Shown here piece by piece: positions 18,415-33,777 of a DNA stretch of 35,892 nucleotides (the stretch's first letter is position 1; every line of letters begins with the position of its first letter). The stretch covers positions 1 through 35,892 of the forward strand of contig NZ_JANYEK010000118.1 of NCBI RefSeq assembly GCF_025363195.1. The letters are read 5' to 3'. The position numbers and the translations under genes are program-made. Below the pieces are notes generated by a model. That model saw only the letters and a list, made by a program, of their open reading frames with translations. It was not told the DNA's origin and did no database searches. The stretch comes from Sphingomonas sp. Its GTDB lineage: Bacteria; Pseudomonadota; Alphaproteobacteria; Sphingomonadales; Sphingomonadaceae.

Positions 18415-20994
18415 ATGAACATCGAGAAATTCACCGACCGCGCCAAAGGCTTTTTGCAAAGCGCCCAGACCGTAGCGATCCGCATGAGTCACCAGCGCAT
18501 TTCGCCCGAACACATGCTGAAAGCCTTGCTGGAAGACGATCAGGGCATGGCCGCTGGATTGATCTCGGCGGCGGGTGGCGACGCGAAGAAGGCGGCGAGC
18601 GAAACCGATCTCGCTTTGTCGAAAATTCCTTCGGTTTCGGGTGGGGGCGCGCAACAGACCCCGGGGCTCGACAATGATGCGGTCCGCGTGCTCGATTCCG
18701 CCGAACAGATCGCGCAGAAATCCGGCGACAGCTTCGTCACCGTGGAACGCCTGCTGGTCGCACTGGCTTTATCGCTCAACACCGCCGCCGGCAAAGCGCT
18801 CGAGACCGCGGGCATTACGCCCGAAGACCTCAACGCTGCGATCAACCAAGTGCGCAATGGCCGCACCGCCGACAGCGCAGGCGCAGAGGACAAGTTCGAC
18901 GCGCTGAAGAAATTCGCCCGCGACCTGACGCAGGCCGCGCGCGACGGCAAGCTCGACCCCGTCATCGGCCGCGACGAGGAAATCCGCCGCACGATCCAGA
19001 TCCTCGCGCGCCGCACCAAGAACAATCCCGTGCTGATCGGCGAACCCGGTGTCGGCAAGACCGCGATCGCCGAGGGCCTCGCGCTGCGCATCGCCAATGG
19101 CGACGTGCCCGATACGCTGAAAGGTCGCCGCCTGATGTCGCTCGACATGGGGTCGCTCATCGCCGGCGCGAAATATCGCGGCGAGTTCGAGGAACGCCTG
19201 AAGGGTGTGCTCGACGAGGTGAAGGCCGCCGAGGGCGATATCATCCTGTTCATCGACGAGATGCACACCCTGGTCGGCGCGGGCAAGGGCGAGGGCGCGA
19301 TGGACGCCTCCAACCTGCTCAAGCCAGCCCTTGCGCGCGGCGAACTGCATTGCATCGGCGCGACCACGCTGGACGAATATCGCAAGCATGTCGAAAAGGA
19401 CCCGGCGTTGCAGCGCCGCTTCCAGCCGGTGTTCGCCGACGAACCCAGCGTCGAGGACACGATCTCGATCCTGCGCGGACTGAAAGAGAAATACGAACTC
19501 CATCACGGCGTGCGCATCACCGATGCCGCGATCGTGGCCTCGGCCACGTTGTCGAACCGCTACATCACCGATCGTTTCCTGCCCGACAAGGCGATCGACC
19601 TGATGGACGAAGCCGCCAGCCGCATCCGCATGGAGGTCGAGAGCAAGCCCGAGGAGATCGAAAACCTCGACCGCCGCATCATCCAGCTCAAGATCGAGCG
19701 CGAGGCCCTAAAGCGCGAGAGCGATGCCGCGTCGAAGGAGCGGCTGACGATATTGGAGGGCGACCTTGCCAATCTCGAACAGCAATCCGCCGAACTGACC
19801 ACGCGCTGGCTGGCGGAGAAGGACAAGATTTCCGCCGAAGCGAAGCTCAAGGAACAGCTGGATGCCGCCCGGCTCGAACTGGAACAGGCCCAGCGCGCCG
19901 GCGATCTCGCCAAGGCCGGCGAGCTGTCCTACGGGCGCATCCCGCACCTGGAAAAACAACTCGCCGATGCCGCTGGCGCAGGCGAGGGCGCGATGCTGCG
20001 CGAGGAAGTCACCGCCGACGATATCGCCGGAGTGGTCAGCCGCTGGACCGGAATCCCGGTCGACCGCATGCTGGAGGGCGAACGTGCGAAACTCCTCGGC
20101 ATGGAAGAGGCGATCGGCAAACGTGTCATCGGGCAGGCCCAGGCCGTGCGCGCCGTCTCGACCGCCGTGCGCCGCGCCCGCGCCGGATTACAGGAGGCCA
20201 ATCGCCCGCTCGGCAGTTTCCTGTTTCTCGGCCCGACCGGTGTCGGCAAGACCGAATTGACCAAGGCGCTCGCCGAATTCCTGTTCGACGATCCATCGGC
20301 CATGGTACGCATCGACATGAGCGAGTTCATGGAGAAACACGCCGTATCCCGCCTGATCGGCGCACCTCCCGGTTATGTCGGGTATGAGGAGGGCGGCGTG
20401 CTGACCGAGGCCGTCCGCCGGCGCCCGTATCAGGTGATCCTGTTCGACGAGGTCGAGAAGGCGCATGGCGACGTCTTCAACATCCTGCTTCAGGTGCTCG
20501 ACGATGGTCGCCTGACCGACGGGCAGGGCCGCACGGTGGATTTCAGCAATACGCTGATCATCCTGACGTCCAACCTCGGCAGCCAGTATCTGACGCAATT
20601 GGCCGATGGCGAGGATGTCGGCACGGTCGAACCGCAGGTTATGGAGATCGTCCGCAGTCATTTCCGCCCCGAATTCCTCAACCGGCTGGACGAGATCATC
20701 CTGTTTCACCGCCTCGGCCAAAGCGAGATGGCGCCGATCGTCGACATCCAGGTGTCGCGCATCGGCAAGCTGCTGGCGGATCGCAAGATCATCCTCGACC
20801 TCACCGAAGGCGCCCGCGCATGGCTCGGCCGGGTGGGCTACGATCCGGTCTACGGTGCCCGCCCGCTGAAACGCGCAGTTCAACGCTACCTGCAGGATCC
20901 GCTCGCCGACATGATCCTGCGCGGTAACGTGAAGGACGGCGCGACGGTGCGGGTTGAAGAAGGAGACGGGGGGCTGAAACTAGCCGTCGGTTGA
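18415..20994 (+). CDS. clpB: ATP-dependent disaggregase ClpB
   Basis: An 859-residue Hsp100 chaperone that, with DnaK, extracts polypeptides from aggregates in the cytoplasm. The domains are in order: an N-terminal Clp repeat domain (about 1-150), a first AAA+ module with Walker A GEPGVGKT from residue 209 and Walker [23 protein letters not shown], the long middle coiled-coil domain (about 405-530, rich in Glu, Lys, Leu and Ala) that separates ClpB from ClpA, and a second AAA+ module with Walker [10 protein letters not shown] from residue 606. The C-terminal D2-small domain ends normally. The start ATG 18415 gives the standard N-terminus [14 protein letters not shown]; a much longer open frame upstream is not supported by homology. 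It is single-gene and convergent with the next gene, with only 11 bases between. Confidence 0.97.
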
Positions 20995-21005: not shown

Positions 21006-22292
21006 CTACTCGGTCACCTGCGCGCGCGGATCATGACCGTGCGCGTCCGCCAGCGGGAAAAATTCGCGCAACAGGGCCCGTTCGGCCGGGCGGATATGCG
21101 GGTTCCACACGTCGAAGATCAGGATCGCGCGCAGCTGGTCGGAATCGTTCCAAGCTTCATGCTCAATCGTGTCGTCGAACGCCCAGGCCTCGCCCGGTCG
21201 CCAAACCCGCGTCTCGCCGCCCACGCGAAAACGACAGCCGTCGGGCACGATCAGTGGCAGATGGATGATCGTGCGGACGTTGCTGACCCCGGTGTGCGCT
21301 GGCAGATGGATCCCGGGGCGCAACACCGAGAAGAACACGGTCGGCGCGCGCTGCGGAAGATCGGCCAGCGGCAGCGCCTCGATTGCGGCGGTGGTTTGCG
21401 GGCAACGGGCGCAGGCGGCATCGTCCCGCACGCCGTTTTTCCAGAGATGATACGCGCTCCAGTCGAGCCTGTGGTCCAGCGGTGACCATTTGTTTTGGGG
21501 CGTCCCCGACGGCATCGCGACATACGGGGAAAAGCCGGTGGACATCCCCGCAAACAGCGCCTCAAATTCCTCGCGAATTATGTCGGTCTTCGCTTCGATC
21601 TCCTCCATCCACGGGAAGTGGCGGCAATCGAAAAATTCGTCCGCTGGAAGGAAGGGAAAGTGCAGCCCGGCGCATTGGTTGGCGTAGATCTGCCGACGTC
21701 CAAGCAACTGATCGACACAGGCGTCGAACCGTCGACTGTCCGCACTGTCCACCGCACTTCGCGCGTCGGCCAGACCCCGATCAAGCGCGGCGGCGAAGTC
21801 CGCCTGTTGCGCCGTGACATAGGATTGTGCGTGCGCCACCATCTCGTCGATGGCGGCGCTGCGCTCCTCCATCTGCGCCGCCATTGCCAGGACGCCCGAC
21901 CAGTGCTCCGCCGCTTGCGCCAAGGCCCCCGCCCGCTCAAACAGTTCGGCCAGCCGTACCAGCGCCATGAAGTGGCGCTGGTCGATCGCCAACGCGCCTT
22001 CCAGCGCCGCCTGCTCACCCGCAGCATCGCCGCTCGACCGCAACGCGCGTGCAAGGTTCATGTGCAACTCGGGCGCGTTCGGATCCGCAAGCGTGGCACG
22101 TCGGAACATCAGGGCGGCGGCGATAAAGTCATTCCGCGCCAGCGCTTGGAAACCGAGCATGTTGAGGGCCAGCGGATGGTCCCCGGCGCTGGCCAGTATC
22201 TCTTGACACAGCTTCGCCGCTTGGTCGTGCAGACCCGCGCGCTGCGCCTGGCTGGCCGCAGCCAGTATATTCTGAACGTTCGTCTGGTTCAT
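21006..22292 (-). CDS. TPR protein with aspartyl/asparaginyl beta-hydroxylase domain (copy 1)
   Basis: This 428-residue protein has TPR-like helical repeats at residues 5-140 (including HPLALNMLGFQALARNDFIAAALMF-type repeats), then a spacer and a C-terminal aspartyl/asparaginyl beta-hydroxylase domain (about 215-415). This family uses Fe(II), O2 and 2-oxoglutarate to hydroxylate Asp or Asn side chains in proteins. The two-histidine iron site is visible as PAHTGVSNVR (His333) and DDTIEHEAWNDS (His378), and Arg388 fits the 2-oxoglutarate-binding Arg. As in AspH, no acidic iron ligand is apparent. ATG 22292 is preceded by GGGAGG. No signal peptide is seen, so it would act in the cytoplasm. It has a clear paralogue at 23421-24596 and diverges from a sulfotransferase-like gene 52 bp away. 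The substrate is unknown. Confidence 0.9.
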   Translation of the reverse strand: MNQTNVQNILAAASQAQRAGLHDQAAKLCQEILASAGDHPLALNMLGFQALARNDFIAAALMFRRATLADPNAPELHMNLARALRSSGDAAGEQAALEGALAIDQRHFMALVRLAELFERAGALAQAAEHWSGVLAMAAQMEERSAAIDEMVAHAQSYVTAQQADFAAALDRGLADARSAVDSADSRRFDACVDQLLGRRQIYANQCAGLHFPFLPADEFFDCRHFPWMEEIEAKTDIIREEFEALFAGMSTGFSPYVAMPSGTPQNKWSPLDHRLDWSAYHLWKNGVRDDAACARCPQTTAAIEALPLADLPQRAPTVFFSVLRPGIHLPAHTGVSNVRTIIHLPLIVPDGCRFRVGGETRVWRPGEAWAFDDTIEHEAWNDSDQLRAILIFDVWNPHIRPAERALLREFFPLADAHGHDPRAQVTE

Positions 22293-22344
22293 TTCCACCT
22301 CCCCTCCTCTATATCTGCCTGCTCCCACTAGACAACCAGCGCGC

Positions 22345-23424
22345 ATGGCGGGCATTATTGGGGTAATGAACGCGCGATTACCAATCATGGCTGGGCTGTC
22401 CGCGGAGACTGCAACCGTGGTCCGTGATCCTTCTTGGCTCGCACACCGCTACGACCCAGCGCAGGATGTCGTACAGTTCCTGCCCGTATCGCGCACGGTC
22501 CATCAGAAATCGACCTTCATCACTGACGAGTATTTGCCGAAAGGGCTTGTACCAGTTGTGGTGCCCCGCGCCCTGGCAAAGGCCGAAGCCCCGTCTGAAG
22601 CACCGTTGCATTTCGTGTTCCATTCCGCGTTTTGCTGCTCGACGCTGCTGGCACGCGCATTCGAACGACCGGGATGGGCAATGGGGCTGAAAGAGCCCGT
22701 CATCCTCAACGACATTGTCGGCTGGCGCCGGCGCGGTGGGCAGGGCGCCGACATGGCCACGGTGCTCGACGATGTGCTGACACTGCTCGCGCGACCGTTT
22801 GAGCCCGGCGAAGCGGTGATCGTCAAGCCGTCCAACATCGTCAATAGTCTCGCTGCGGCAATTCTGGCGTTGCGGCCGAATGCGCGGGCGATCCTGCTCC
22901 ACGCGCCCTTACGCACCTATCTCGGCTCGATTGCGCGCAAAGGGATGGACGGGCGATTATGGGTCCGCGTTTTACTGCAGGGGCTGCTCGACGATAAATT
23001 AGTCGATTTTGGCTTCTCGCCGCGCGATTATTTAGGCCTGACCGACCTGCAAGTGGCGGCGATAGGGTGGCTTGCGCAGCAACGGTTGTTCGGACGGCTA
23101 GTCGCGCAGTTTGGGCCGACACGGGTCGCGACGATCAACAGCGCGATGGTGACAGCCGAACCCGCCGCGACGATGCAGGGACTGGCCGAGCTGTTCGGCT
23201 TGCCGCTGGAGGCGCCCGCGCTGGAGGAAATCCTATCTGGGCCTGCCTTTACGCGCCATTCCAAACACGAAACCTCGTTTGCGCCGGAGGACAGGGCGCA
23301 GGAATTGGCCGACGGTAACCGCCTGCATGCCCCCGAGATCGAAATGGTCGCGCATTGGGCCGAAGTCGTCGCTGAAACGATGCAGGTGCCGATGACCCTT
23401 CCAGCACCTTTGCTGTCGCGATGA
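22345..23424 (+). CDS. Sulfotransferase-like P-loop protein (copy 1)
   Basis: Up to 359 residues. It resembles the sulfotransferase fold but with a variant nucleotide loop: HFVFHSAFCCSTLLARAF (residues 89-106) stands where sulfotransferases have GYPRSGTTLL. Following motifs (LKEPVILNDIVGW, IVKPSNIVNSLAAAILALRPNARAILLHAPLRTYL) look like the core of that fold. Its closest relative in the window is the protein at 30611-31597, sharing STLLARA, REP/KEP, APLRxYL/LPLRDYL and LTD...WLAQ segments. Whether it binds PAPS and transfers sulfate is not shown. The start is uncertain: ATG 22345, 22366 and 22387 are in frame and none has a good ribosome-binding site; comparison with the paralogue favours one of the later ones. 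Its stop overlaps the next start (ATGA), so it is co-translated with hydroxylase copy 2. Confidence 0.75.
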   Translation: MAGIIGVMNARLPIMAGLSAETATVVRDPSWLAHRYDPAQDVVQFLPVSRTVHQKSTFITDEYLPKGLVPVVVPRALAKAEAPSEAPLHFVFHSAFCCSTLLARAFERPGWAMGLKEPVILNDIVGWRRRGGQGADMATVLDDVLTLLARPFEPGEAVIVKPSNIVNSLAAAILALRPNARAILLHAPLRTYLGSIARKGMDGRLWVRVLLQGLLDDKLVDFGFSPRDYLGLTDLQVAAIGWLAQQRLFGRLVAQFGPTRVATINSAMVTAEPAATMQGLAELFGLPLEAPALEEILSGPAFTRHSKHETSFAPEDRAQELADGNRLHAPEIEMVAHWAEVVAETMQVPMTLPAPLLSR

Positions 23425-24596
23425 TTGACGATCTGGCGTCCGTTGCCCAATCAGGCGTCGCGGCATTGCAACGTGGTGATCCTGAAGCCGCCCGGGCGGC
23501 GTTTGAGCAGGTCGAGCGCGCCGGGCGCGGCACGCACCAGCTGCGCCTGTTGCTGGCGCAGGCCTGCATGCTGGCGGCCGATGGCGCGGCGGCCCACCGT
23601 GCACTCGATCAGGTCCTGACCACGGAGCCCACCAACCTGTACGCCCTGATCATGCGTGGCGATCTCTATCGCGATGCGGATAATCCACGGGCGGCGGTCA
23701 GCTGGTATCACGCCGCACTTGCTCAGGCCCACGGCGCTGGGGCTTTGCCTCCCGATCTCCTCGACGCGCTGCGCCGCGTCGAAGGGGCGGTTACCCAAGC
23801 TGGCGCAGTTTTCCAGGCATCACTCAATGATGCGCTGGCCGATGCTGGTCTCGGAGCGCCCGCCCCTGGTACTCGCCTTGCCGAAGCGATGGACATTTTG
23901 GCGGGTAACGCGGAGGTTCATCTCCAGCAGCCAACCAATTTTTATTACCCGGGCCTGGCCCCGCGCCCGTTTTTCGACCGCGAGACGTTTGACTGGGTCC
24001 CCGGGCTCGAAGCACGCACCGATGCGATCCGGCGCGAGTTGGAACAGATACTGGCAGACGACGGCGCGCTCAGCCCCTATATAAAGGCCGAAGCCGATCG
24101 TCCGGCGAAGCAGCATGCCCTGCTCGGCGATCCAGCCTGGAGCGCCTTTCACTTGTTTCAGGACGGCCAGCCATTGGCTGAACATTCTGCGCGTTGCCCG
24201 GAGACAATGGCGGCGCTCGCCGATCTGCCGCTGCCGCGCATTGCTGGCAGATCTCCGACGGCGATGTTTTCAGTATTGCGTGCGGGCACGCATATTCCAC
24301 AGCATCACGGAATGCTCAATACGCGGCTAATCTGCCATTTACCGTTGATCGTGCCGCGCGATTGCCGGTTGCGGGTCGGGAATGTCGTGCAGGTCGTCCG
24401 ACCCGGACGCATGATGATCTTCGATGATTCGATCCAGCACGAAGCATGGAACGACAGCGACCAGACCCGCGTCGTCCTTCTGTTCGAAATTTGGCGGCCC
24501 GACCTCGATGTAGCCGAACGCCAAGCGCTCACCGTGCTCTTCGAAGCGATCGGCCGATTTACGCCAGGCGGAACAGCGGACCAAGCCGGCGCATGA
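23421..24596 (+). CDS. TPR protein with aspartyl/asparaginyl beta-hydroxylase domain (copy 2)
   Basis: A 391-residue paralogue of the 21006-22292 protein: N-terminal TPR-like helices (about 1-120), a linker, and the 2-oxoglutarate/Fe(II) hydroxylase domain (about 180-375). The iron site is PQHHGMLNTR (His296 aligned with His333 of copy 1) and DDSIQHEAWNDSDQTR (His340, with Arg350 for 2-oxoglutarate). Shared blocks include FSVLRAGTHIP, HLPLIVPRDCRLRVG and LLFEIWRPDL. It is predicted to hydroxylate Asp, Asn or a similar residue in a peptide or protein. The start ATG overlaps the stop of the sulfotransferase-like gene, a strong hint that the two act together. The C-terminus is short and Gly/Ala-rich. 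No export signal is present. Confidence 0.9.
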   Translation: MIDDLASVAQSGVAALQRGDPEAARAAFEQVERAGRGTHQLRLLLAQACMLAADGAAAHRALDQVLTTEPTNLYALIMRGDLYRDADNPRAAVSWYHAALAQAHGAGALPPDLLDALRRVEGAVTQAGAVFQASLNDALADAGLGAPAPGTRLAEAMDILAGNAEVHLQQPTNFYYPGLAPRPFFDRETFDWVPGLEARTDAIRRELEQILADDGALSPYIKAEADRPAKQHALLGDPAWSAFHLFQDGQPLAEHSARCPETMAALADLPLPRIAGRSPTAMFSVLRAGTHIPQHHGMLNTRLICHLPLIVPRDCRLRVGNVVQVVRPGRMMIFDDSIQHEAWNDSDQTRVVLLFEIWRPDLDVAERQALTVLFEAIGRFTPGGTADQAGA

Positions 24597-24604
24597 TTGC
24601 TGGC

Positions 24605-24877
24605 TCAGCAGGGTGTTCCAGCATCGCCGCCACGACAGGACTGCCTGGGAGCAAAACTGTCACGCGCCCGCAGCATCTCGCGGTCCCAATCAGCCTTTGA
24701 TTTGCAAACCTTGCGCTTCGCCACAAGCGAACCAATGTCGGTCTCCCGCTTGCAAACGATCGTCTGTGAATCGTCTGTCTTGGCGTTGGTCGTTACTGGA
24801 GAAGCAACACGGGTCTGTGCTGCGACCGAACTGCTGACCAATGCCGCAGCGGCCAGCCCTACTAATATGCGAACCAC
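24605..24877 (-). CDS. Small exported protein of unknown function (90 aa)
   Basis: A 90-residue protein with a clear signal peptide (MVRILVGLAAAALVSSSVAAQ), leaving about 69 mature residues. The mature part contains Cys residues in TIVCKRETDIGSLVAKRKVCKSKADWDRE and in the tail SCRGGDAGTPC, four in all, which suggests disulfides in the periplasm. Proteins with this CKRE...GS...KVCKSxADW pattern are common as hypothetical proteins in sphingomonads (recalled, not searched). The start is GTG 24877, with AAGGGAG 6 bases upstream. It lies on the opposite strand between hydroxylase copy 2 and the TPR-sulfotransferase, whose upstream region it faces. No function can be assigned; a role as substrate of the neighbouring enzymes is only a possibility. 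Confidence 0.75.
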   Translation of the reverse strand: MVRILVGLAAAALVSSSVAAQTRVASPVTTNAKTDDSQTIVCKRETDIGSLVAKRKVCKSKADWDREMLRARDSFAPRQSCRGGDAGTPC

Positions 24878-24987
24878 CTACGTCTCCCTTGAAATCATGC
24901 GCCGTTATAGACAAACCACGCTTGGGGAAAAGCCGGATCAATGAAGATGCAAAATTGAAGCGTCGCAAGAAGGCTCCGGGACAACGC

Positions 24988-26610
24988 ATGGTTGATTCAG
25001 CGCTGCACGCGAGCATCCAGCGAGCACTCGCGGCTAACGATATCCCTGGGGCAGCCCTTTTGGCCGAGCAGGCGCTCGCCCGAGGGCCAGCAGATCCGCT
25101 GCTCCTCAATCTCGCGGCATGGCGCAGGGAGGAGGCGGGGGACTATTTGGGTGCGCACGGTCTATTGCGCCGCGCTTTGGAAATGTCGCCAGGCGATGCG
25201 CTCGTGATGAGTGCGATCGGCGCGGTTTTCCGCAAGGAAGGCGTGTACGAGCAGGCGCTCATCATGCTCGATCGAGCGATCGCCGTCGAGCCGAGCCATG
25301 CAGCGACGTGGCTTGAACGCGGTTACACGCTCGATGGCTTGCGATTGGTGCGTGAATCGAAGGTGAGCTACGAACGCGCGCTTTCGCTCGATGCGACGCT
25401 AGCACCGGCTTGGGCAAAACTCGCGGATATCGCCGCGAAAGATGGCGATGCGGCGGGCGGTGCTTCGCTGGCGGAACGGGCACTGGAACTCGACCCATAC
25501 GAGCCGACCGCCCAGTGTGCGCTGGCGACGATCGAGATCGAGGCGCGCGAGGGTCGTGCCGCGGAAGCGCGGCTGAACGCATTGCTCGCTCGCGCCGTGC
25601 CGGAGAGCGACCGCGTGCGTGCGCTCACGCTGCTCGGCGATGCCTTCGACCGACAGGATCGCACCGCTGAGGCATTCGCAGCTTATGGGCGCGCACAGAC
25701 CAACTTCCGCGCGATCCACGCCAAAGACCTTGCGCCGCGCCCCGACCGACCATCGCACCGGGCGTTCATCGAGGCGATCGCGGCGCAGGTGCAGGAGGCG
25801 CCAGCCGTGCCTCCGCCTCCGCCTCCGGTTGCAGATGGGCAGATTGAGGGCGCCGCAGCCACTCATGTCTTCCTCCTCGGCTACCCCCGGTCCGGCACTA
25901 CCCTGCTCGAGAATGTGCTTGCCAGCGCGCCCCGTGTCTCGGCACTGGAAGAGCGCGATACGCTGGCCGATACCGACGAGGTACTGGTACGGAACGACGG
26001 GAGGATGCCGCCGCTGGACGAAATTGATCCTGCGGTGCTGCAGCGCTTACGCTACGGGTATTGGCGGCGCGTTCAGGCAATGACCGGCGATGTTGCAGGC
26101 GGAATCTTCGTCGACATGAACCCGTTCAACGGGATCAAGCTTCCGGTGATCGCGCGGTTATTTCCGCAGGCGCGAATCCTCATCATGCGGCGCGATCCAC
26201 GCGATGTGGTACTCAGCTGCTACCGCATCAATTTCACACCGAGCACTGCCGCCTGGGCATTCAGCGAGTTGGAGGAGACGGCGCGGCATTACGACGCCTT
26301 GATGCGGCTGACCGAATTGTGTCGCGAACGCCTGCCGCTAGCTTTCCACGACGTGCGCTATGACCGGTTGGTAACGGATTTCGAAGCGACGGTGCGCGAA
26401 ACCGCAGCGTTCCTTGGCATCGAATGGACCGAAGCATTCCATGCGTTCAATCGGACAGCTCAAACGCGCGGAGTGCGTACCGCAAGCGCGACGCAGGTAC
26501 GGCGCGGCCTGTATGACGGACGCGGCCAATGGCGACGCTATGCCGACCATCTTCAGCCGATCCTACCAATTCTGGCACCGTGGATCGAACGCTTCGGGTT
26601 CGATCAATAA
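24988..26610 (+). CDS. TPR-containing sulfotransferase
   Basis: A 540-residue fusion. Residues 1-260 form TPR repeats (with PADPLLLNLAAWRREEAGDY-, SHAATWLERGYTLDGL- and LAPAWAKLADIAAKDGD-type units), then a Pro-rich linker (VPPPPPPVA), then a sulfotransferase domain (about 290-540). The canonical PAPS 5'-phosphosulfate-binding loop is GYPRSGTTLLEN (from residue 298), and the 3'-phosphate-binding motif is RRDPRDVVLSCYR (from about 402). It should transfer sulfate from PAPS to a hydroxyl or amine, with the TPR part selecting a protein or peptide substrate, as in bacterial TPR-sulfotransferase proteins. ATG 24988 is preceded only by a weak, distant AAGG, so the start is uncertain; earlier in-frame starts exist back to 24841. 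It converges on the large TonB receptor gene across a bidirectional terminator. Confidence 0.88.
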   Translation: MVDSALHASIQRALAANDIPGAALLAEQALARGPADPLLLNLAAWRREEAGDYLGAHGLLRRALEMSPGDALVMSAIGAVFRKEGVYEQALIMLDRAIAVEPSHAATWLERGYTLDGLRLVRESKVSYERALSLDATLAPAWAKLADIAAKDGDAAGGASLAERALELDPYEPTAQCALATIEIEAREGRAAEARLNALLARAVPESDRVRALTLLGDAFDRQDRTAEAFAAYGRAQTNFRAIHAKDLAPRPDRPSHRAFIEAIAAQVQEAPAVPPPPPPVADGQIEGAAATHVFLLGYPRSGTTLLENVLASAPRVSALEERDTLADTDEVLVRNDGRMPPLDEIDPAVLQRLRYGYWRRVQAMTGDVAGGIFVDMNPFNGIKLPVIARLFPQARILIMRRDPRDVVLSCYRINFTPSTAAWAFSELEETARHYDALMRLTELCRERLPLAFHDVRYDRLVTDFEATVRETAAFLGIEWTEAFHAFNRTAQTRGVRTASATQVRRGLYDGRGQWRRYADHLQPILPILAPWIERFGFDQ

Positions 26611-26611
26611 A

Positions 26612-26637
26612 AAAGGGGCGGGAGAACCCGCCCCTTT
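26612..26637. terminator. Bidirectional intrinsic terminator
   Basis: AAAGGGGCGGG (26612-26622) and CCCGCCCCTTT (26627-26637) pair perfectly around an AGAA loop. On the minus strand the stem is followed by a run of six T, and on the plus strand by TTTCAT. It terminates the convergent TPR-sulfotransferase and TonB receptor transcripts. Confidence 0.93.
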
Positions 26638-26661
26638 CATCGTGTCGGAAACCGACCCAAA

Positions 26662-29600
26662 TTAGTATTTGAGGCGCACACCGACAGCGAAGCGACGACC
26701 CAATGTGTCGTAGGTCGACGGATAGGTGTTCCCGCTATTGTAAGACGTACTGCCGATCGTGCCGCCCACGACAGGCGGATTTTTGTCGAACAGGTTCATC
26801 ACGGAAATCGTGAAGTCGAAGTGGTTGTTGACGCTGAACCGGGTCGCCAGATCGAAATAGTTATAGGCGTTGATATGGCCGAAGTTGAACGTCTGGCCAG
26901 CCAAAGCACCCGTCGCGATGGTGCCGTTGAATGTCACCGTGTTCGGGTCGGCGTTAACCGCGTCGATATGACGCCACAATACCGAGAAATCGACCGAATC
27001 GAAGGTCAGGGTGGTGCGCTGGTTCCAGCTGAACTTCGGCTGGATCGAGGCGCATTTGTTGCTGTAGATGCCGACGCACTCGATGACCGACGTCGCTGGA
27101 AGCGCACCACCGCCGCCAGGAGCCCCAGCCGGCAGAACGCTATTCGGAACGATTGCCTGGAATTGCGAACGATGCGTCCAGTTACCCTGGAAGCTGAGGT
27201 TCAGCTTCACGACACCCAGATCACGGCGATAATTCACGCCGAGATCGATACCGTCCGTAAGCAACTTACCAGCGTTCGAGGTCGGCAGGATCACACCCTG
27301 GGTCGTCGCAGGATCGCCATCGAGCTGACCCGTCACCGGGTTACGCTTGATCAAGTTACAAATCGGATTCGCGGTAGTCGGATTAGCGAAGCAGGCATTG
27401 ACGAGATCCTGGCCCGATGGTGACGAAATCGCGTTGCGGATGAGGATGTTGTAATAATCCGCCGTGACCGAGAAGCCAGGTATGAGATGTTTTGGCTGTA
27501 GGACAACGCCGAACGTGTAGCTGTCCGACGTTTCCGGACGCAGGTAGGTAGCACCGGAGGAGGTTCCATTACCCTGGTTCGCAGTCGGATTCTTGATGCC
27601 GCCGATCGACGCAGCAGGAGCACCCTGAGCGATGCAGAGCGTTGCCAAAGCGCTACCAGCCGTTGCCAAGCGGCAAGGGTCGGCCGAGATGTTGGTCAGA
27701 CCGGTGCTGAGCGGCGTGAACAGCTCGGTGATGTTCGGGGCACGAACCGCACGCTGATAGTTGCCGCGGAACTTGATGCCATCGACAGGCTCCCAGCTAC
27801 CGCCTGCCTTGTAAGTGGTGGTGTTGTACTTGGGGGTTCCTGCTGCAAACACCTTGTAGGCCGAATAGCGAATGCCGGTTTCAAGCGTCAGGCTTTGGAA
27901 ACCTGGCCGATCTTGAACGAGCGGCGCGATCAATTCGCCATACGCTTCCTTCGCTTCATAGCTGCCGTTGAAGTTCAACACGGCGCCACCGGCGCCGCCC
28001 AGCTCACCGGCGGTCTGCGAAAGTGCATCCGCCGTCTGTGCGGCGTAATATTTGCGATATTCGCCACCGACCGCGAAGCCGATCGGATCGTTAGCGAACG
28101 GACTCGATTTGCCGAAATCGCCGCTCAGCAGCGCGCGAGCCTGCGTGAGCGAAGCCTTTTGCGCATTGGTCGCCGTCGCCGTCAGATATGGAATCTGGTT
28201 CGGTGAGATGCTGCCGTTTGCGCCAAAGATGTTGACTGGAACGCAGCCTGACCCGGCTGAAGTGCTGGCGCCGCCAGCAGCGAGCGGCGGAAGCAACGGG
28301 TTCGGGTTGTTCAACTGTGGCGCAGCACCCAGGTTACAGTTGGTGGTGCTGGTCGTATACACTGCGGTCCGCAAACGCGAGATCAGCACATACCCGTCCT
28401 GAGTTTGGCGATTTTCCGACTCACCGTACGAACCCGACAGGTCAAGGTCGATCGACTTGGTGATACCGACCTTCACACCCGCGCGATAATCGAAATACGT
28501 CGTCGTATATTCCGAATTACGCGTTCCGATCTCGGTCGTACGGCGACCCGTTGTGGTGGTGAACGAGCGGAAATTCGGATCATTCGGGCCCGTTGCGAGA
28601 GCAGCCGCGTCGCACTGCGCCGGGGTCAACGTCTGGATGCCGGGCGTGTTCGGATCAAAATCGTTGTTTGCGCAGAACTGCGCGCGGGCGGCCGCAGGCA
28701 GATACGGGTTGCTGACCGGGATGGTCAGAATCTGCGAAAACACGCCCGACGGCGCGACGATCGTGTCGACCGTGTTCTTGGAGAACAATCCGCGCGTGTA
28801 AACCTGAACGTTGTCCGCCACGTCGTAATGCGCTGCACCGTAGATGTTGTAGCGCTTAAACGGCGTCTGGAAGATGTTGTACGGGTTGAAGTTAAACGCG
28901 TCACGCGACTTCGAATACGGACGGAGTGCTCCGGTTGATGGATCAATGGTATTGAATTTCGTGCCGAGCGTGAAGCGCCCGGGAACCGTCGTTCCCGAAC
29001 CGCCCTGCCCGCCCGAGGTCGAGGTGTAATTGTTGAGCGAGAAGTTGCGCGCCCCTTGATAGACCGGATCGGACTTCTGGTAGCCGACGGATAGGACCGC
29101 GTTGCCGCGCCCATCATCGAAATTGGCGCCCATCGTCACGTCTGCGCGGAAATAACGGCCATCACCCTTGCCGTTGATCTGGTTGGACACGTTCGCCTCG
29201 AAGCCGCCGAAGTCCGACCGTGTGATGAAGTTGATTACGCCAGAAACGGCATCGGCGCCGTACGTCGTCGCTGCACCACCGGTTAACGTATCAACACGCT
29301 GGATCAGCGCGAGCGGGATGTTGTTGAGATCGGTTCGGCCGGTCGAACCCGATGGGGTAAGGCGCGTACCGTCGAGGAGCACGACGTTGCGGAAGTTGCC
29401 GAGGCCGCGAAGATCGACATATGCCGAGCCGCCGTTGCCGTTGTTGACGGCCGAACCAATCGACGGAACCGCTCCAGGCAGGTCGCGCAGGATCGATTCA
29501 GCGGTGTTCGCCTGACGTAATTGGATTTCTTCCTGACCAATGACCGCGATCGGGCTCGATGCAATCAAGTTCGGGTTGCGGATCAACGTGCCGGTAACGA

Positions 29601-29808
29601 CGATATCGCCGGTCGAGGTGGCTTCGGCAGGCGGGGCCGATTCCTGACTCGAGATCCCGGCCGCCGGTGCGCCCGACGAAGATGCCTGCACACCCGTCTT
29701 TGGCTGGCTGGCTGGGTTGGCGTCCTGCGCGAAAGCGGGCTGGGTCGCAAAGGCTGCACCGACCAGCAATGTGGAGGTCAGCAGACGCGAACGATACGTA
29801 GCTAGCAT
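26662..29808 (-). CDS. Large TonB-dependent receptor of the hydroxylase/sulfotransferase island
   Basis: A 1048-residue outer-membrane receptor. The signal peptide (LLTSTLLVGAAFATQPAFA) is followed by a Gln/Pro/Ser-rich stretch and a TonB-box-like DIVVTGTLIRN, then the plug (about 75-190; AESILRDLPGAVP, YVDLRGLGNFRNVVLLDGTRL, TYGADAVSGVINFITR) and a large barrel ending in VGVRLKY. It is much longer than the 784-residue receptor in the window, because of long extracellular loops with Cys-containing inserts (AQFCANNDFDP, TPAQCDAA, SAGSGCVPVN). The class resembles sphingomonad and Caulobacter receptors annotated for oligopeptide or oligosaccharide uptake. ATG 29808 was chosen from the AAGGGG site 7 bases upstream and the signal peptide. 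Base composition looks lower in G+C than the flanking housekeeping genes. The ligand is unknown. Confidence 0.93.
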   Translation of the reverse strand: MLATYRSRLLTSTLLVGAAFATQPAFAQDANPASQPKTGVQASSSGAPAAGISSQESAPPAEATSTGDIVVTGTLIRNPNLIASSPIAVIGQEEIQLRQANTAESILRDLPGAVPSIGSAVNNGNGGSAYVDLRGLGNFRNVVLLDGTRLTPSGSTGRTDLNNIPLALIQRVDTLTGGAATTYGADAVSGVINFITRSDFGGFEANVSNQINGKGDGRYFRADVTMGANFDDGRGNAVLSVGYQKSDPVYQGARNFSLNNYTSTSGGQGGSGTTVPGRFTLGTKFNTIDPSTGALRPYSKSRDAFNFNPYNIFQTPFKRYNIYGAAHYDVADNVQVYTRGLFSKNTVDTIVAPSGVFSQILTIPVSNPYLPAAARAQFCANNDFDPNTPGIQTLTPAQCDAAALATGPNDPNFRSFTTTTGRRTTEIGTRNSEYTTTYFDYRAGVKVGITKSIDLDLSGSYGESENRQTQDGYVLISRLRTAVYTTSTTNCNLGAAPQLNNPNPLLPPLAAGGASTSAGSGCVPVNIFGANGSISPNQIPYLTATATNAQKASLTQARALLSGDFGKSSPFANDPIGFAVGGEYRKYYAAQTADALSQTAGELGGAGGAVLNFNGSYEAKEAYGELIAPLVQDRPGFQSLTLETGIRYSAYKVFAAGTPKYNTTTYKAGGSWEPVDGIKFRGNYQRAVRAPNITELFTPLSTGLTNISADPCRLATAGSALATLCIAQGAPAASIGGIKNPTANQGNGTSSGATYLRPETSDSYTFGVVLQPKHLIPGFSVTADYYNILIRNAISSPSGQDLVNACFANPTTANPICNLIKRNPVTGQLDGDPATTQGVILPTSNAGKLLTDGIDLGVNYRRDLGVVKLNLSFQGNWTHRSQFQAIVPNSVLPAGAPGGGGALPATSVIECVGIYSNKCASIQPKFSWNQRTTLTFDSVDFSVLWRHIDAVNADPNTVTFNGTIATGALAGQTFNFGHINAYNYFDLATRFSVNNHFDFTISVMNLFDKNPPVVGGTIGSTSYNSGNTYPSTYDTLGRRFAVGVRLKY

Positions 29809-29944
29809 GGAATTCCCCTTTTGAACTTCAATAGTCCGATTGCCGGACTCCGACCGACTGTTATCGATCACTGCCCTACTGCCTATTGGACTTTTCTCAG
29901 GATCGCCATCGGGGTTGTCGCTGTGACAAAAGAATCCCGCGCGG

Positions 29945-29979
29945 TGTAACATCTACGACACACTTCGATACATGTTACA
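29945..29979. promoter_or_regulatory. Long inverted repeat between divergent TonB receptor and exported-protein genes
   Basis: TGTAACAT (29945-29952) and ATGTTACA (29972-29979) are perfect 8-base inverted arms with a 19-base spacer; the match continues inward for two further pairs after one mismatch. It lies in the 234-bp gap between the divergent starts at 29808 and 30043, 63 bases before the exported-protein ATG. The centre-to-centre distance of 27 bp is roughly two and a half helical turns, compatible with a dimer-of-dimers or looping operator, or with a hairpin in one leader. No regulator gene is adjacent. The rest of the gap shows no gene. Confidence 0.5.
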
Positions 29980-30042
29980 GGCGGCTTGTCGATTGTGGCA
30001 GCTTCCCGTACCAGTCCTCGCCACCACCAGAGAGAAATTCGC

Positions 30043-30594
30043 ATGCGAATAGCGTCGATCGCCACGGCAACAGCCCTCGCCTTGATAGCAATCACGGTAA
30101 CGGGGGGGGAAGCATCGGCGCAATCCGGATCCGCGGACGCTATCCTGCAATCCTTCTCGAAGTGCCGCTCCATCGGTGTCGTCGAAGCGCGACTCGACTG
30201 CTTCGACAAGGCGGCTCAGGCGCTGGAGAAAGCCGTCAAGACGCATGACGTCACGATTACCAACCGGCAGGAGGTACGCTCAGCGCAGCGGTCGCTATTC
30301 GGTTTCAACATCGGCCGCCTCGCTCTCTTCGGAACTGGTGGCGACCGCTCGGACGAGTCGATGAAGCGAGACGTGTTTGATCGACTCGATACCACAATCG
30401 TCAGCACGCAGCAGGTGGCGAACGGTAATGTCCAACTGCGCGTGGCTGAGGGTGGCGCGGTGTGGGTCACCACTGACGCCATGCCGTTCCCGCCACACGC
30501 CGGCACGAAAGTCTCGATAAGGCGTGGTGCACTTGGTAATTATTTCATCAACGTTGAGGGGCAACGCTCGGTGCGGGGCACACGCCTTCGCTAA
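30043..30594 (+). CDS. Exported protein of unknown function (183 aa)
   Basis: A 183-residue protein with a signal peptide (about residues 1-26, ending EASAQ). The mature part begins SGSADAILQSFSKCRSIGVVEARLDCFDKAAQALEKAV, with a C...RLDCFD pattern seen in various proteobacterial secreted proteins of unknown role; the two Cys may pair. The second half is beta-rich (RVAEGGAVWVTTDAMPFPPHAGTKVSIRRG, NYFINVEGQRSVRGTRLR), ending in a small domain with a basic tail. The start ATG 30043 follows an AGAGAGAA stretch. It is divergent from the large TonB receptor and converges on sulfotransferase-like copy 2, 16 bases away. Because it is periplasmic and shares the receptor's control region, a joint role is possible. 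No function can be named. Confidence 0.8.
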   Translation: MRIASIATATALALIAITVTGGEASAQSGSADAILQSFSKCRSIGVVEARLDCFDKAAQALEKAVKTHDVTITNRQEVRSAQRSLFGFNIGRLALFGTGGDRSDESMKRDVFDRLDTTIVSTQQVANGNVQLRVAEGGAVWVTTDAMPFPPHAGTKVSIRRGALGNYFINVEGQRSVRGTRLR

Positions 30595-30610
30595 GGTCGT
30601 ACTTCGGTAT

Positions 30611-31597
30611 TCAACCGAATAGCCTGCGCGATTCGAGCACCGCGCATGCGGCGTCCGCTTCTATAGCGCGCGGTTCGATCCAGCGCTGAGCCTGGACGAT
30701 TTCGGCCGCCAACAGCGTTTCCAGCGCTGCGCGCCGCGCCAGCCGCTCCATATTATCGAACGCGATGGCAGGGTTCTTGGAATAGGTCGAGAATAACGCA
30801 CCCGCGACAATAGTGTCCAAACTTTCGCACGACAGCGGTATTTGAAGGCGGTCGGCCACCGATGAAAGGATGATCCCAGGGTACGCGAAGAATGCCTCGG
30901 CATCCAGACTCCGCCCACCTTCCATCTTTCCGAGTGCCGTGGCGAAAGCGCTGACTTGCGCAAGCCAAAGGGCGGCGACCCGCTCAGCATCAGTCAGCCC
31001 CCCCGTGTCGCCGAGCCACGGCGCAAGCAGGGTGGTGACGCGTCGCAGCCATTCACGGTGATTGTCACTGCGCAGGATCGCCAGCAGATAATCGCGTAAC
31101 GGCAAATGCAGGAAGATCGAGCGCGCGCGGGGATCCGCCGCCGCCAATTCGGGCAGCAGGAAATTGACCGGCACATTCGCCTTGACGATCGTTGGGGTGT
31201 CGGCACGGTAGCGTTTCGACAGCATCGCGATAACCAAGGCCAAGCGATCTGCGGCGGCGCGGCCGGGCGCGTAAGCTGCCGCCACCTGCCGTAGCGCCAG
31301 CGGCTCGCGTAGCACGAGGTTCGAAGACAGATGATCGATCGCGCGGGCCAGGAGCGTCGAACCGCAATGAGCAAAATGGAAGATCCAGCCGGTCGCGGCC
31401 GGGCGCGGCATCGCGACGGTCAGCCCCGACACCGGCATATGCATGACACCCTCGGCAGCGGGCGAGATGCGACCGTCGAGGAAGATCGAGCGGTTATAGG
31501 CCGCGCGATCCATCGGCACGAACACCGCCGCGTCACCCTCGAAAGAATGGAGATAGTGGTCGGGTGAAACAAAAAGATCGTCGCGGGTCAGGGCCAT
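30611..31597 (-). CDS. Sulfotransferase-like P-loop protein (copy 2)
   Basis: A 328-residue paralogue of the 22345-23424 protein. The nucleotide-loop-like motif is WIFHFAHCGSTLLARAI (residues 71-87), then LVLREPLALRQVAA, TIVKANVPVNFLLPELAAADPRARSIFLHLPLRDYLLAILR and LTDAERVAALWLAQ, all mirrored in copy 1. The C-terminal IVAGALFSTYSKNPAIAFD matches ILSGPAFTRHSKHETSF of copy 1. The loop CGSTLL is closer to authentic sulfotransferase loops (RSGTTLL) than the CCSTLL of copy 1. Catalytic residues cannot be confirmed. It starts at ATG 31597 and diverges from the TauD-type gene with 50 bp between the starts. No export signal is seen. Confidence 0.78.
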   Translation of the reverse strand: MALTRDDLFVSPDHYLHSFEGDAAVFVPMDRAAYNRSIFLDGRISPAAEGVMHMPVSGLTVAMPRPAATGWIFHFAHCGSTLLARAIDHLSSNLVLREPLALRQVAAAYAPGRAAADRLALVIAMLSKRYRADTPTIVKANVPVNFLLPELAAADPRARSIFLHLPLRDYLLAILRSDNHREWLRRVTTLLAPWLGDTGGLTDAERVAALWLAQVSAFATALGKMEGGRSLDAEAFFAYPGIILSSVADRLQIPLSCESLDTIVAGALFSTYSKNPAIAFDNMERLARRAALETLLAAEIVQAQRWIEPRAIEADAACAVLESRRLFG

Positions 31598-31647
31598 CGC
31601 CAGACGCTATAGCTGACGGCCGAATTTGTCGCTATCCCGCCACGGCA

Positions 31648-32613
31648 ATGCCAAAGATTTTTCTGCCCGAACACGGCCGCCCGCAAGTCCTGATTGAACC
31701 CGCCGGCGAGCGGACAATCCTGACGATCGACCCGGCCCAGATCATCGCACTGTACAAGGCGCACGGCGCCCTGTTGTTTCGGGGATTCACTACCGAGGTT
31801 GCGGAGTTTCGAAGTTTCGCTCGGCAGTTCTGCCCGACCTCAGTGATCAACGAGAGCCCTGGCCGGCAGCCGATCGATCCCGACCACAACATCCATACGG
31901 TAGATGGCGGGACTGGCGCTTTCTCACTGCATCCTGAATTGTCGCGCGAGCCTTGGAAGCCCGACGCGGCATTCTTTGCGTGCCTGTCTCCGCCCTCGCG
32001 TGGCGGCGCTACCCTGATCTGCGACGGGGTCGCGCTGGTCCGTGCGCTGCCGGACGCCGTGCGACGCGGTCTCGAGCATCGCCGTCTCTTGTATATCAAG
32101 CCGACATGGCCAGAATTGCTCGAGTTCTGGCTGGGGGACCCCAACCCGAACGACGCTGTACTAGCCGCCTCGTCGCCGGATTGCCCCTATTCCTTCCGTC
32201 GGATTGAGCAACACATCGTGCGCTTCTTCACCCGTCCGGCGCTACACCGACCGATGTTCATTGACGAACCGGCGTTCGGCAACTTCCTGCTATTCGCTCG
32301 CTTCAACAACAACCGCCCGGATTTTCCGGTTCTGGACGATGGCTATCCGGTGCCCGAGGCATGGCTACAGGCGATCAAGGCGGCTGGTGACTCGGTGGCG
32401 GTGCCAATCGCATGGCAGACCGGGGACCTGCTGATGCTGGACAATACGCGTTTCATGCACGGACGCACACCAATCCTGGATGCGAAGGAGCGGTTGATCG
32501 CGACGTATTTCGGCTATGTCGGCTTTGCAAAGCCCGACCCTGAGGAGCCGGCCAATCCGCTCTGGCGCCGCGCCGACTTTACTCCGCCCTTCCCGCCCGG
32601 GCTGCTGCGCTAA
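31648..32613 (+). CDS. TauD/TfdA-family 2-oxoglutarate/Fe(II) oxygenase
   Basis: A 321-residue double-stranded beta-helix oxygenase. The iron facial triad is HPE (His95 and Glu97 in AFSLHPELSREP) with the distal His271 in LDNTRFMHGR; a following Arg serves 2-oxoglutarate binding. The Glu in place of Asp is common in TfdA/SyrP-like members that hydroxylate amino acids or natural-product intermediates. The segment ALLFRGFTTEVAEFRSFARQF is the usual family N-terminal block. Role: probably hydroxylation of a small molecule or peptide residue; taurine itself is not indicated. ATG 31648 was chosen over an earlier frame start, which would lie inside the divergent gene. It ends one base before the convergent M23 peptidase stop. 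It is part of the island with the two AspH-type enzymes. Confidence 0.9.
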   Translation: MPKIFLPEHGRPQVLIEPAGERTILTIDPAQIIALYKAHGALLFRGFTTEVAEFRSFARQFCPTSVINESPGRQPIDPDHNIHTVDGGTGAFSLHPELSREPWKPDAAFFACLSPPSRGGATLICDGVALVRALPDAVRRGLEHRRLLYIKPTWPELLEFWLGDPNPNDAVLAASSPDCPYSFRRIEQHIVRFFTRPALHRPMFIDEPAFGNFLLFARFNNNRPDFPVLDDGYPVPEAWLQAIKAAGDSVAVPIAWQTGDLLMLDNTRFMHGRTPILDAKERLIATYFGYVGFAKPDPEEPANPLWRRADFTPPFPPGLLR

Positions 32614-32614
32614 G

Positions 32615-33577
32615 TTATGGCGAGACGGGCACTGGCCCCGCCAGCAGCAACGGATCTATACGCGCATCCCGCCACTTCAGCCCCCAGTGCAGATGCGGGC
32701 CGGTCGCGCGCCCAGTCATGCCGACCGCGCCGATCACCTGCCCACGCCGCACCTGGTCACCGACATGCACATCGATGCGCGACAGGTGCAGGAACGCGCT
32801 GTTGAGGTCGGCGCCGTGGTCGATCATCAGCAGATTGCCCTCCAGTGTGAAGGGGTGGTCCGCCGCCAGAATCACCACGCCGTCGGCGGGGGCAAGCACT
32901 GGCGTGCCGGTCGGCCGCGCGATGTCGATCCCCGAATGGTACGACCCGGCCTCATTGTTTTTGTAGATGCGCTGCGACCCGAACAACGTCGAGATGCGCC
33001 CGGTCGTAGGCCACAGGAACGGCTGCCGCCAGCCATCGCTGTCCACCGGAATGCGGCGCGCGGCGGCAATCTCGGCCAGTTCGGCGGGGCGGATGCGCGC
33101 GAATTCCGCCTCGGGCACCGGATATTTTTGCAAACTGTCGAGCCGCGAGATATTCCAGCCGCGCGGTGCGACAACCAATGCGTCGCTGACCTGCCGCCCA
33201 TCATCCAGCGTCGCGACCAAAGTCGCGGAAGGTCCGGCATCGCGATCGAAGGCGATCAGGAACCGGCCGTCCGGCGCAACCCGCACCGCCGCGCCGTTGA
33301 AGCTGAGCGCGGCAGTCCCACCGGGGGCGAGGCCAATCACCGCGCCGCCCTGCATGCGCGGGCCGCTATAGCTGAAGGTGATCGGCCCGGCCGGGCGATT
33401 GGGCTGGACGGTCGGCGCGTCGCTAAGGGTCGACGGCGGCACCGATCGTATCGGTGGTTGAATTTTCGGGCGCGGCGGCGGGATGGTCGCGCAACTGCCG
33501 AGCAGCATCAGGCCAATGCTGATCAGCGCCCAGCGCTGCGGTCGGTGCAAGCTGCGGGTCGCCCGCGGACGCGTCAC
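32615..33577 (-). CDS. M23-family peptidoglycan endopeptidase (lipoprotein)
   Basis: A 320-residue LytM-domain protein, expected to cut peptidoglycan cross-links in the periplasm or to activate amidases. The start GTG 33577 overlaps the DUF2093 stop (GTGA). The signal ends in the lipobox LLGSC, so it is a probable lipoprotein. A Pro-rich linker leads to an N-terminal beta domain (about 45-180) and the M23 domain (about 200-315) with Zn-binding HSGIDIARPTG (His and Asp) and GPHLHWGL (His), so the zinc site looks intact. It lies last in the xseA - DUF2093 - M23 operon, an arrangement also seen in other alphaproteobacteria. Confidence 0.92.
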   Translation of the reverse strand: MTRPRATRSLHRPQRWALISIGLMLLGSCATIPPPRPKIQPPIRSVPPSTLSDAPTVQPNRPAGPITFSYSGPRMQGGAVIGLAPGGTAALSFNGAAVRVAPDGRFLIAFDRDAGPSATLVATLDDGRQVSDALVVAPRGWNISRLDSLQKYPVPEAEFARIRPAELAEIAAARRIPVDSDGWRQPFLWPTTGRISTLFGSQRIYKNNEAGSYHSGIDIARPTGTPVLAPADGVVILAADHPFTLEGNLLMIDHGADLNSAFLHLSRIDVHVGDQVRRGQVIGAVGMTGRATGPHLHWGLKWRDARIDPLLLAGPVPVSP

Positions 33578-33777
33578 GTCGCCGGGCTCATCGCCTTCGT
33601 CGCGATCTCGGCCGAGGCATAGGCTTCCTGCGCGGCCACGCTCCAATAGCGCAAGTCCTCCAGCGCGATGCGCTCGCCACTCACCGCGCAGATGACATGG
33701 TCGCCGGGCGCCAGCACGCGAAAGCCATTGGCCATGTAGTGGAGCCGCGCGGGGCGATCGGTGTTCGACATCAGCAT
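33574..33777 (-). CDS. DUF2093 domain-containing protein (67 aa)
   Basis: A 67-residue protein recognisable as DUF2093: LHYMANGFRVLAPGDHVICAVSGERIALEDLRYWSVAAQEAYASAE carries the family features (GxFxVLxPGxxVxCAVxGxxIxLxxLRYWSxxxQEAY). Function is unknown; the family is restricted mainly to alphaproteobacteria and is often next to xseA, as here (14 bp downstream of it). ATG 33777 or the second ATG at 33771 are both possible starts. It overlaps the M23 gene by 4 bases. Confidence 0.93.
   Translation of the reverse strand: MLMSNTDRPARLHYMANGFRVLAPGDHVICAVSGERIALEDLRYWSVAAQEAYASAEIATKAMSPAT

Follow-up and report, generated by a model that had tools for sequence, protein, structure and literature searches.

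Known systems and the present locus

Three described kinds of gene cluster come closest to the locus considered here, which lies in a draft genome of Sphingomonas sp. on contig NZ_JANYEK010000118.1 and was analysed as one stretch of 35,892 nucleotides (the window). Methanobactin operons (MbnA/B/C/S/T), as set out in the available part of PMC3621798, place a TonB transporter and, in some cases, a sulfotransferase (Thr sulfonation) around a modified peptide. Bufferins and other precursors modified by multinuclear non-heme iron-dependent oxidative enzymes (MNIOs) are, in the available part of PMC12452194, Cys-containing proteins with a Sec signal that are modified and then exported. Finally, the part of PMC10040529 that holds Table 2 lists, as clusters 1738-1748, a lasso B2 protein, a sulfotransferase, an aspartyl beta-hydroxylase, a hypothetical protein, a second sulfotransferase, PqqD and an Asn-synthase-like protein. 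The numbering there suggests a peptide cluster with the same pair of enzymes as the window, adjacency being taken from the numbering alone, and its product may be a sulfated and hydroxylated lasso peptide not described before.

The locus consists of nine genes between a clpB-like gene and an M23 peptidase/xseA pair (the pair at 32615-35510). They encode, in order and with strand in brackets, a tetratricopeptide-repeat protein with an AspH-type hydroxylase domain (TPR-AspH A, or AspHa; -), a sulfotransferase-like protein (STL1; +), TPR-AspH B (AspHb; +), a small exported-looking protein (sp1; -), a TPR-sulfotransferase (TPR-ST; +), a TonB-dependent receptor (-), a second small protein (sp2; +), a second sulfotransferase-like protein (STL2; -) and a TauD-type 2-oxoglutarate (2OG) oxygenase (+). 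All nine are where an earlier, sequence-only reading of this DNA had placed them, and we refer to the set as the cassette.

As far as the available parts of the sources go, the cassette shares with methanobactin operons a small ribosomal product, a sulfotransferase and a TonB-dependent transporter, but the window has other, 2OG, oxygenase families, and sp1 has a Sec-like signal and a different Cys pattern. No MbnB-type MNIO (DUF692) was matched among the 22 window open reading frames (ORFs) scanned against Pfam, a set that includes a few ORFs that are probably not genes and leaves some further window ORFs outside it. With the bufferins, to the same extent, the cassette has in common a small Cys-containing protein, a Sec-type signal and, as proposed below for sp1, modification before export; it differs in having no MNIO among the scanned ORFs, in its AspH/2OG and sulfotransferase enzymes, and in having a TonB receptor as the usual partner. 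It differs from the lasso-type cluster in having no lasso genes among the scanned ORFs, with no match there to lasso B1/B2 proteins or to an Asn-synthase-like cyclase. All three systems, as described in those parts of the sources, differ from the cassette, and the gene set is not described in the full-text literature covered, which mostly excludes subscription papers and preprints.

Protein sulfation and Asp/Asn hydroxylation are, to our knowledge, little known in bacteria. In this recurring locus the two kinds of enzyme go with a particular receptor and a particular small exported protein, which provides a short gene list and a defined protein in which to search for modification. The recurring sphingomonad-type set beside one receptor looks like an undescribed modification system for an exported protein or for the receptor, and it gives a testable role to some of the many sphingomonad TonB receptors lacking a known ligand.

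Recurrence and turnover of the cassette

Our survey covered 396 genomes of the order with few candidates scored per genome, so genome counts are lower bounds: relatives of TPR-AspH were found in at least 184 genomes (E<=1e-20), of STL1 in at least 147 (E<=1e-8), of the receptor in at least 114 (E<=1e-120) and of sp1 in at least 215 (E<=1e-5). Eighty regions around STL1 matches were fetched, 79 spanning 11-20 kb and the remaining one 5.3 kb. The 72 strongest STL1 loci (L058-L129, matches to about 6e-61, window excluded) represent 23 genera and two families by hand count, and six of them are shortened on one side. A further set of named loci comprises the best 80 of 240 found and shares some genomes with the order-wide set (L144 and L058, for example). 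Genes in relatives were called by a simple codon-score script, which may miss small genes, and oxygenase tallies count only profiled TPR-AspH, PF13759-type and prolyl 4-hydroxylase-like (P4H-like) genes. Because the sampled genomes are related, none of the counts represent independent events.

Within 6 kb of STL1, a TonB receptor is present in 67 of the 72 strongest loci, an sp1-family gene in 53, a TPR-AspH, TPR-PF13759 or P4H-like gene in 52, and a TPR-sulfotransferase in ten. AspHa adjoins STL1 in many relatives, and sp2 is likewise near the receptor in many. Named loci of at least 16 kb (n=67) have the receptor in every case, sp1 in 60 and a profiled 2OG gene in 56. The sequence-only reading had named restriction to this one genome as an outcome that would speak against it; the neighbourhood survey instead found that the set recurs, with receptor, sp1, AspH, TPR-ST, TauD and STL2 all present in 13 of the 80 named loci (Sphingomonas sp. 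PAMC 26605, S. montana, S. echinoides, S. sp. ERG5, S. glacialis, S. sp. 28-66-16, S. adhaesiva, S. natans, S. ginsenosidimutans, S. immobilis, Novosphingobium chloroacetimidivorans, Novosphingobium sp. 18050 and Sphingobium boeckii). This fraction is no rate for the order, because those 80 are the closest STL1 relatives. STL2 plus TauD, and more than one AspH-profile match, are each seen in 13 of the 80 named loci; TauD as such is found in 14 of them and in none of the 72 strongest loci of the order-wide sample.

The association extends to loci that lack STL1. Twenty sp1-family loci far from STL1 were taken, one per genome, as every third of 60; a TonB receptor is beside sp1 in 12 of them (L218, L219, L220, L221, L225, L227, L228, L230, L231, L232, L234, L236), ten of which (not L219 or L236) also hold a TPR-2OG, P4H-like or TPR-ST gene in the region of ~14 kb. 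Another 20 receptor loci were hand-picked from the higher-scoring matches in genomes without an STL1 match, and 11 of these (L238-L240, L242-L244, L248-L250, L255, L256) have sp1 or a profiled 2OG gene. Over 92 receptor loci, AspH lies within 6 kb in 45 of the 67 with STL vs 6 of the 25 without, a comparison uncorrected for relatedness.

The composition of the set changes from locus to locus. A FastTree phylogeny of the receptors from 77 usable loci requires at least nine changes of oxygenase state (type or none), 8 of STL presence, 10 of sp1 and 7 of TPR-ST, a turnover that makes the cassette modular. The locus is receptor-centred, with interchangeable 2OG types and sulfotransferase subfamilies. 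A second relative of the TonB receptor is found near an sp1, AspH or TPR-2OG gene in L218, L225, L238, L242, L243, L248 and L249.

Sulfotransferase-fold proteins

The sequence-only reading had described canonical 3'-phosphoadenosine-5'-phosphosulfate (PAPS) motifs in the TPR-sulfotransferase and two further sulfotransferase-like proteins. TPR-ST (P0004) bears out the first part, scoring 109.8 bits against the PF13469 (Sulfotransfer_3) cut-off of 27 with both PAPS loops kept; it retains an EE pair as well as PRSGTT and RRDPRD..S. The latter two motifs of TPR-ST are conserved, and P-loop motifs visibly differ among the TPR-sulfotransferases of receptor loci. The nearest Protein Data Bank (PDB) sequences to its sulfotransferase domain are tyrosylprotein sulfotransferases (TPSTs; 8w5z, E 4.7e-9; 3ap1, E 9.5e-8).

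The second part of the description holds for the predicted fold of STL1, although neither STL1 nor STL2 matches any family in Pfam or NCBIfam. An AlphaFold2 model of STL1 (alignment A3, 33 sequences; pLDDT 89.7, pTM 0.88) has 8w5z as its best Foldseek match (E 1e-5) and aligns with the TPST 5wrj_C over 226 residues (VIA-align, Z 15.4, root-mean-square deviation 3.4). By this model STL1 has a sulfotransferase fold, nearest to tyrosylprotein sulfotransferases. At the sequence level PF13469 weakly matches three of the 33 A3 members (best E 0.016), the STL profile finds nothing better among PDB sequences than an unrelated protein at E 0.12, and a profile-profile comparison of STL with the sulfotransferase domain is weak (probability 44%, E 2.4e-4). 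The STL1 loop reads FHSAFCCSTLL, and the canonical Arg/Lys of the 5' phosphate loop is missing, as is PRSGTT. Residues H93, S99, T100, E117, K161 and K307 are invariant in alignment A1 (16 sequences), and E117, counted from the loop Thr, stands at what we take to be the spacing of the catalytic Glu of TPST2. STL1 thus resembles TPST1/2 in predicted fold and, presumably, in having a Glu at catalytic-base spacing, and TPR-ST resembles them in domain sequence, but STL1 has no sequence-level match to any PDB chain and mature sp1 of the window is free of Tyr. STL adds a sulfotransferase-fold family missed by Pfam and NCBIfam.

Distant STL relatives appear in other settings. An M13-family peptidase (c68; Pfam-tested in L127, PF05649 and PF01431) lies close to those in L127, L131 and L135. 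The stretch L130:8583-15671 contains a P4H-like frame and an STL; nearby are a 92-aa protein and genes that by eye resemble DoxX, an anti-sigma factor and a sigma factor of the extracytoplasmic function (ECF) type, an arrangement reminiscent of bufferin clusters. We considered L130 as a lasso cluster on the basis of its gene lengths, but the sequences read by eye contradict this.

AspH and other 2OG oxygenases

The TPR-AspH proteins P0001 (AspHa) and P0003 (AspHb), which are 37% identical, score 149.1 and 148.1 bits to PF05118 (Asp_Arg_Hydrox) against a curated cut-off of 22.6. The two-His iron sites that the sequence-only reading had called intact are found: in P0001 both His segments (lpahtg and ieheaw) are in register with human AspH in a HMMER alignment, and the P0003 segments match by eye. 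Human AspH presumably has its catalytic domain behind a TPR region, as the window proteins do, and P0001 is like it in keeping both His segments of the PF05118 domain; the window proteins differ in being bacterial, in having no visible signal peptide and in also weakly matching lipid hydroxylases. Other 2OG oxygenases stand in for AspH at some loci, namely a TPR protein with PF13759 at L109 (Pfam-tested; L115 and L118 by similarity) and a P4H-like PF13661 protein at L091 (Pfam-tested; L128 and L129 by similarity).

LpxO and OlsC, which are AspH relatives, hydroxylate lipid acyl chains, and they are the nearest NCBIfam families to both AspH domains (OlsC, E 1.6e-25 and 1.5e-30; LpxO, E 5.2e-14 and 1.4e-13). 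Because of this placement we considered that the enzymes might hydroxylate and sulfate an envelope lipid, with the receptor and small proteins as neighbours or envelope partners. Both domains nevertheless fall far below the curated cut-offs (89.8 and 106.2 bits vs 450 for OlsC; 52 and 50.5 bits vs 500 for LpxO), TPR domains usually bind proteins, and the sulfotransferase likeness is to protein sulfotransferases, so a lipid substrate seems very unlikely.

A P0003-type TPR-AspH was rejected as the sole marker of the cassette. Thirteen of the 20 loci of its best matches (L034, L035, L040, L042-L044, L046, L048-L053) have no receptor, sulfotransferase or sp gene; L036-L038, L041 and L047 carry cassette genes; and L039 and L045 offer no more than a remote TonB-like ORF, which scores 174 and 187 bits against the window's other receptor and 60 and 70 bits against the TonB profile. 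In L034, L035 and L046 a lone TPR-AspH is beside mutS- and/or glnD-like genes (by eye), the region being free of TonB receptors, and this stand-alone TPR-AspH may act on another substrate.

Small exported-looking proteins

Neither sp1 nor sp2 matches Pfam. In its own genome the sp1 profile (alignment A2) has one strong match, the window gene (2.1e-19), and one at E 0.002; across 26 genomes the family is low-copy, with 0-7 matches per genome (E<=0.01), although the profile was built from locus members and therefore favours them. Of 184 distinct sp1 members from fetched loci, 171 have the pattern C-x15-C; these 171 carry Ser/Thr at loop position 8 in 98.8% of cases and Thr/Ser two residues past the second Cys in 98%. 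The Trp that follows the second Cys never varies in A2 (17 sequences) or A4 (31 sequences); in the 184-member count it belongs to the search pattern. A model of sp1 (mean pLDDT 73, pTM 0.45, core pLDDT 94-96) has a hairpin (40-46, 54-60), whose strands each carry one Cys (Cys42, Cys58) and whose loop contains Ser50, followed by a helix.

Two kinds of modification site in sp1 were considered. For an AspH target, no conserved Asp/Asn was found in the loop or the 26 residues after it; against Tyr sulfation stand the Tyr-free mature sp1 of the window and the 42% of the 171 members that have no Tyr in the part examined. The second small protein, sp2, has one match in its own genome at E<=0.01.

The sp1 family also occurs in a second context, in pairs without a receptor or cassette enzyme (L224, L226, L229, L233, L237). 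The pair in L224 adjoins trmJ-, nrdR-, glyA- and rpiB-like genes by eye, and the other four are alike by gene sizes.

A proposed function and its alternatives

The reading that we favour, tentatively and at rather less than an even chance, is that the oxygenases and sulfotransferase-fold enzymes modify exported sp1 in the cytoplasm and that sp1 works with the TonB receptor. The gene company, its modular turnover and the STL1 fold are what we observe, and from them we infer that sp1 is modified. The oxygenases and sulfotransferases, most of which bear TPR domains and none of which has a signal peptide by eye, would act in the cytoplasm (an assumed site) on unfolded sp1 before Sec export. Sulfation would fall on Ser/Thr, the candidate being the near-invariant hairpin-loop Ser/Thr between both Cys of sp1, while hydroxylation would affect residues that differ between lineages. 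Once exported and closed by its disulfide, the modified hairpin might work with, or bring cargo to, the neighbouring receptor, and the variable enzyme sets might tune the specificity of the sp1-receptor pair. A bolder reading, which we think nearly as probable, is a bacterial post-translational hydroxylation and sulfation system that serves one TonB receptor together with an exported microprotein partner; swapping 2OG oxygenases and TPST-like sulfotransferases, with STL as a new sulfotransferase family among them, would then diversify receptor-ligand recognition at a single chromosomal site.

The sequence-only reading had proposed that the locus hydroxylates and then sulfates a peptide or protein, which could be imported, exported or the receptor itself. 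The two activities on a peptide or protein retain support in that the genes recur together and the enzyme classes resemble protein-modifying ones, although AspH also weakly matches lipid hydroxylases. The survey does not support an obligate order of hydroxylation and sulfation, nor is one needed: among the 92 receptor loci, STL occurs in 15 (nine with sp1, six without) that lack any TPR-AspH, TPR-PF13759, P4H-like or TPR-ST gene within 6 kb. Independent tailoring by each enzyme fits better. Of the three candidate substrates, the exported small protein gained the most support.

A number of observations, together with the OlsC and LpxO matches described above, weigh against modification of sp1. 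Its loop plus the next 26 residues have no position that is Asp/Asn in more than about half of members, although a conserved one would be expected of an AspH substrate, and its conserved Ser may be structural. Three of the 72 strongest STL1 loci have no receptor, sp1, profiled oxygenase or TPR-ST within 6 kb; seven (three of them shortened) have STL1 and the receptor but neither sp1 nor a profiled oxygenase; and L079 and L080 combine STL1 with AspH and sp1 while lacking a receptor within 6 kb. None of 33 weaker STL relatives has sp1 or AspH listed within 6 kb, and the receptor is found in none of the eight weaker loci L130-L137, of which L130 and L131 have a P4H-like gene. Eight of the 20 sp1 loci away from STL1 have neither receptor nor enzyme, and nine of the 20 STL1-free receptor loci have neither sp1 nor oxygenase. 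Kinship matters as well: independent-pairs tests (STL or any sulfotransferase vs 2OG, sp1 vs 2OG and the like), with 6-8 pairs each, gave no p <0.25, the second trait being unchanged in usually about half or more of the pairs and the few that differ mostly going the expected way. Finally, clpB, M23 or xseA is in the fetched region of 59 of the 72 STL1 loci, and the company is fuller there (receptor in 59, sp1 in 48, a profiled 2OG gene in 47) than in the 13 loci without this flank (receptor in eight, AspH in five, sp1 in five, the receptor with sp1 or an oxygenase in four).

Synteny could account for part of this gene company. In its strongest form, ordinary synteny would have unrelated genes kept together by vertical inheritance of the clpB..xseA segment, and the common flank, the non-significant kinship-corrected tests and the AspHb-type genes that also occur alone in 13 of 20 best-match loci all speak for it. 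As a full explanation we consider it unlikely, since STL1 and AspH persist together without the clpB/M23/xseA flank (L058, L079, L080, L090, L103; also L143, L157 and L175 in maps), differing oxygenase and sulfotransferase types are found at corresponding places, and the low-copy sp1 recurs beside a TonB receptor without STL1. The same flank leads us to reject a mobile element, which the word "island" in the sequence-only reading suggests, and no integrase or transposase was matched among the 22 scanned ORFs.

Alternatively, the enzymes might modify the TonB receptor itself before export, for example in its extracellular loops, resulting in altered ligand specificity or evasion of phage or bacteriocins. 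The receptor is the most constant partner of STL1, and enzyme-type swapping would suit an arms race. In some receptor columns Asp/Asn goes largely with the presence of AspH (N393, 0.94 vs 0.46; D488, 0.98 vs 0.44; N710, 0.76 vs 0.12; N211, 0.94 vs 0.44; 51 vs 41 receptors), but these were chosen from all columns, and because relatedness is uncorrected the co-variation is a lead only. This alternative leaves sp1 unexplained, and nine of the 92 receptor loci have no profiled cassette gene within 6 kb. We regard it as rather unlikely.

The locus might instead serve import, with the receptor taking up a compound or peptide, perhaps sulfated or hydroxylated, that the oxygenases and sulfotransferases process in the cytoplasm. 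TonB receptors are importers, TauD-family enzymes are often catabolic, and one locus (L104) has an S9 peptidase; against this, the TPR-AspH proteins and TPST-like sulfotransferases resemble protein-modifying enzymes and TauD is absent from most loci. No recurring inner-membrane transporter was seen in the maps, where most unlabelled neighbours carry no annotation. An imported substrate is, in our estimation, improbable.

Layout of the window

The window is contig C253 of a draft genome that totals 3.07 Mb in 261 contigs and is 88% complete, and its features are collected in Table 1. The Sec-like N-termini of sp1 and sp2, which the sequence-only reading had taken as secreted, were judged by eye, without a predictor, and look the part. 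The receptor ORF has 1096 codons, and the 1048 residues claimed for the protein fit a start at MLATYRS. In TauD, the HxE and distal H of the proposed iron site were also found by eye. The eight cassette proteins other than the receptor had no match to the defence models of PADLOC (E<=0.01).

Table 1. Features of the cassette and its flanks in the window
Feature	Position	Strand	Evidence and remarks
TPR-AspH A (P0001, AspHa)	21006..22388	-	PF05118 E 1.2e-43; likely true start near 22292 (MNQTN)
STL1 (P0002), predicted sulfotransferase fold	22345..23424	+	No Pfam/NCBIfam family; likely true start near 22387
TPR-AspH B (P0003, AspHb)	23421..24596	+	PF05118 E 2.5e-43
sp1, 90 aa, exported-looking, C-x15-C hairpin core, candidate substrate	24605..24877	-	No Pfam match
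TPR-sulfotransferase (P0004, TPR-ST)	24841..26610	+	PF13469 E 2.9e-31; likely true start near 24988
TonB-dependent receptor (P0005)	26662..29952	-	PF00593 and PF07715; start near 29808 gives 1048 aa
sp2 (P0008), 183 aa, exported-looking, weak VasI likeness	30043..30594	+	TIGR03360 E 0.0019, far below cut-off
STL2 (P0006), second sulfotransferase-like protein	30611..31597	-	30% identity to STL1
TauD/TfdA-type 2OG oxygenase (P0007)	31564..32613	+	PF02668 E 2.9e-29; likely true start near 31648
clpB-like flank, locus border, outside cassette	17770..20994	+	AAA_2 E 8e-70, Clp_N
M23 peptidase flank	32615..33874	-	PF01551 E 3.5e-30
xseA, next after M23 peptidase	33792-35510	-	PF02601 E 1.1e-94

At G121:C74:30090-32501 (L036, L060), a relative of the receptor is part of an open frame of 4173 codons vs the usual 1000, which is either a fusion or an assembly artefact.

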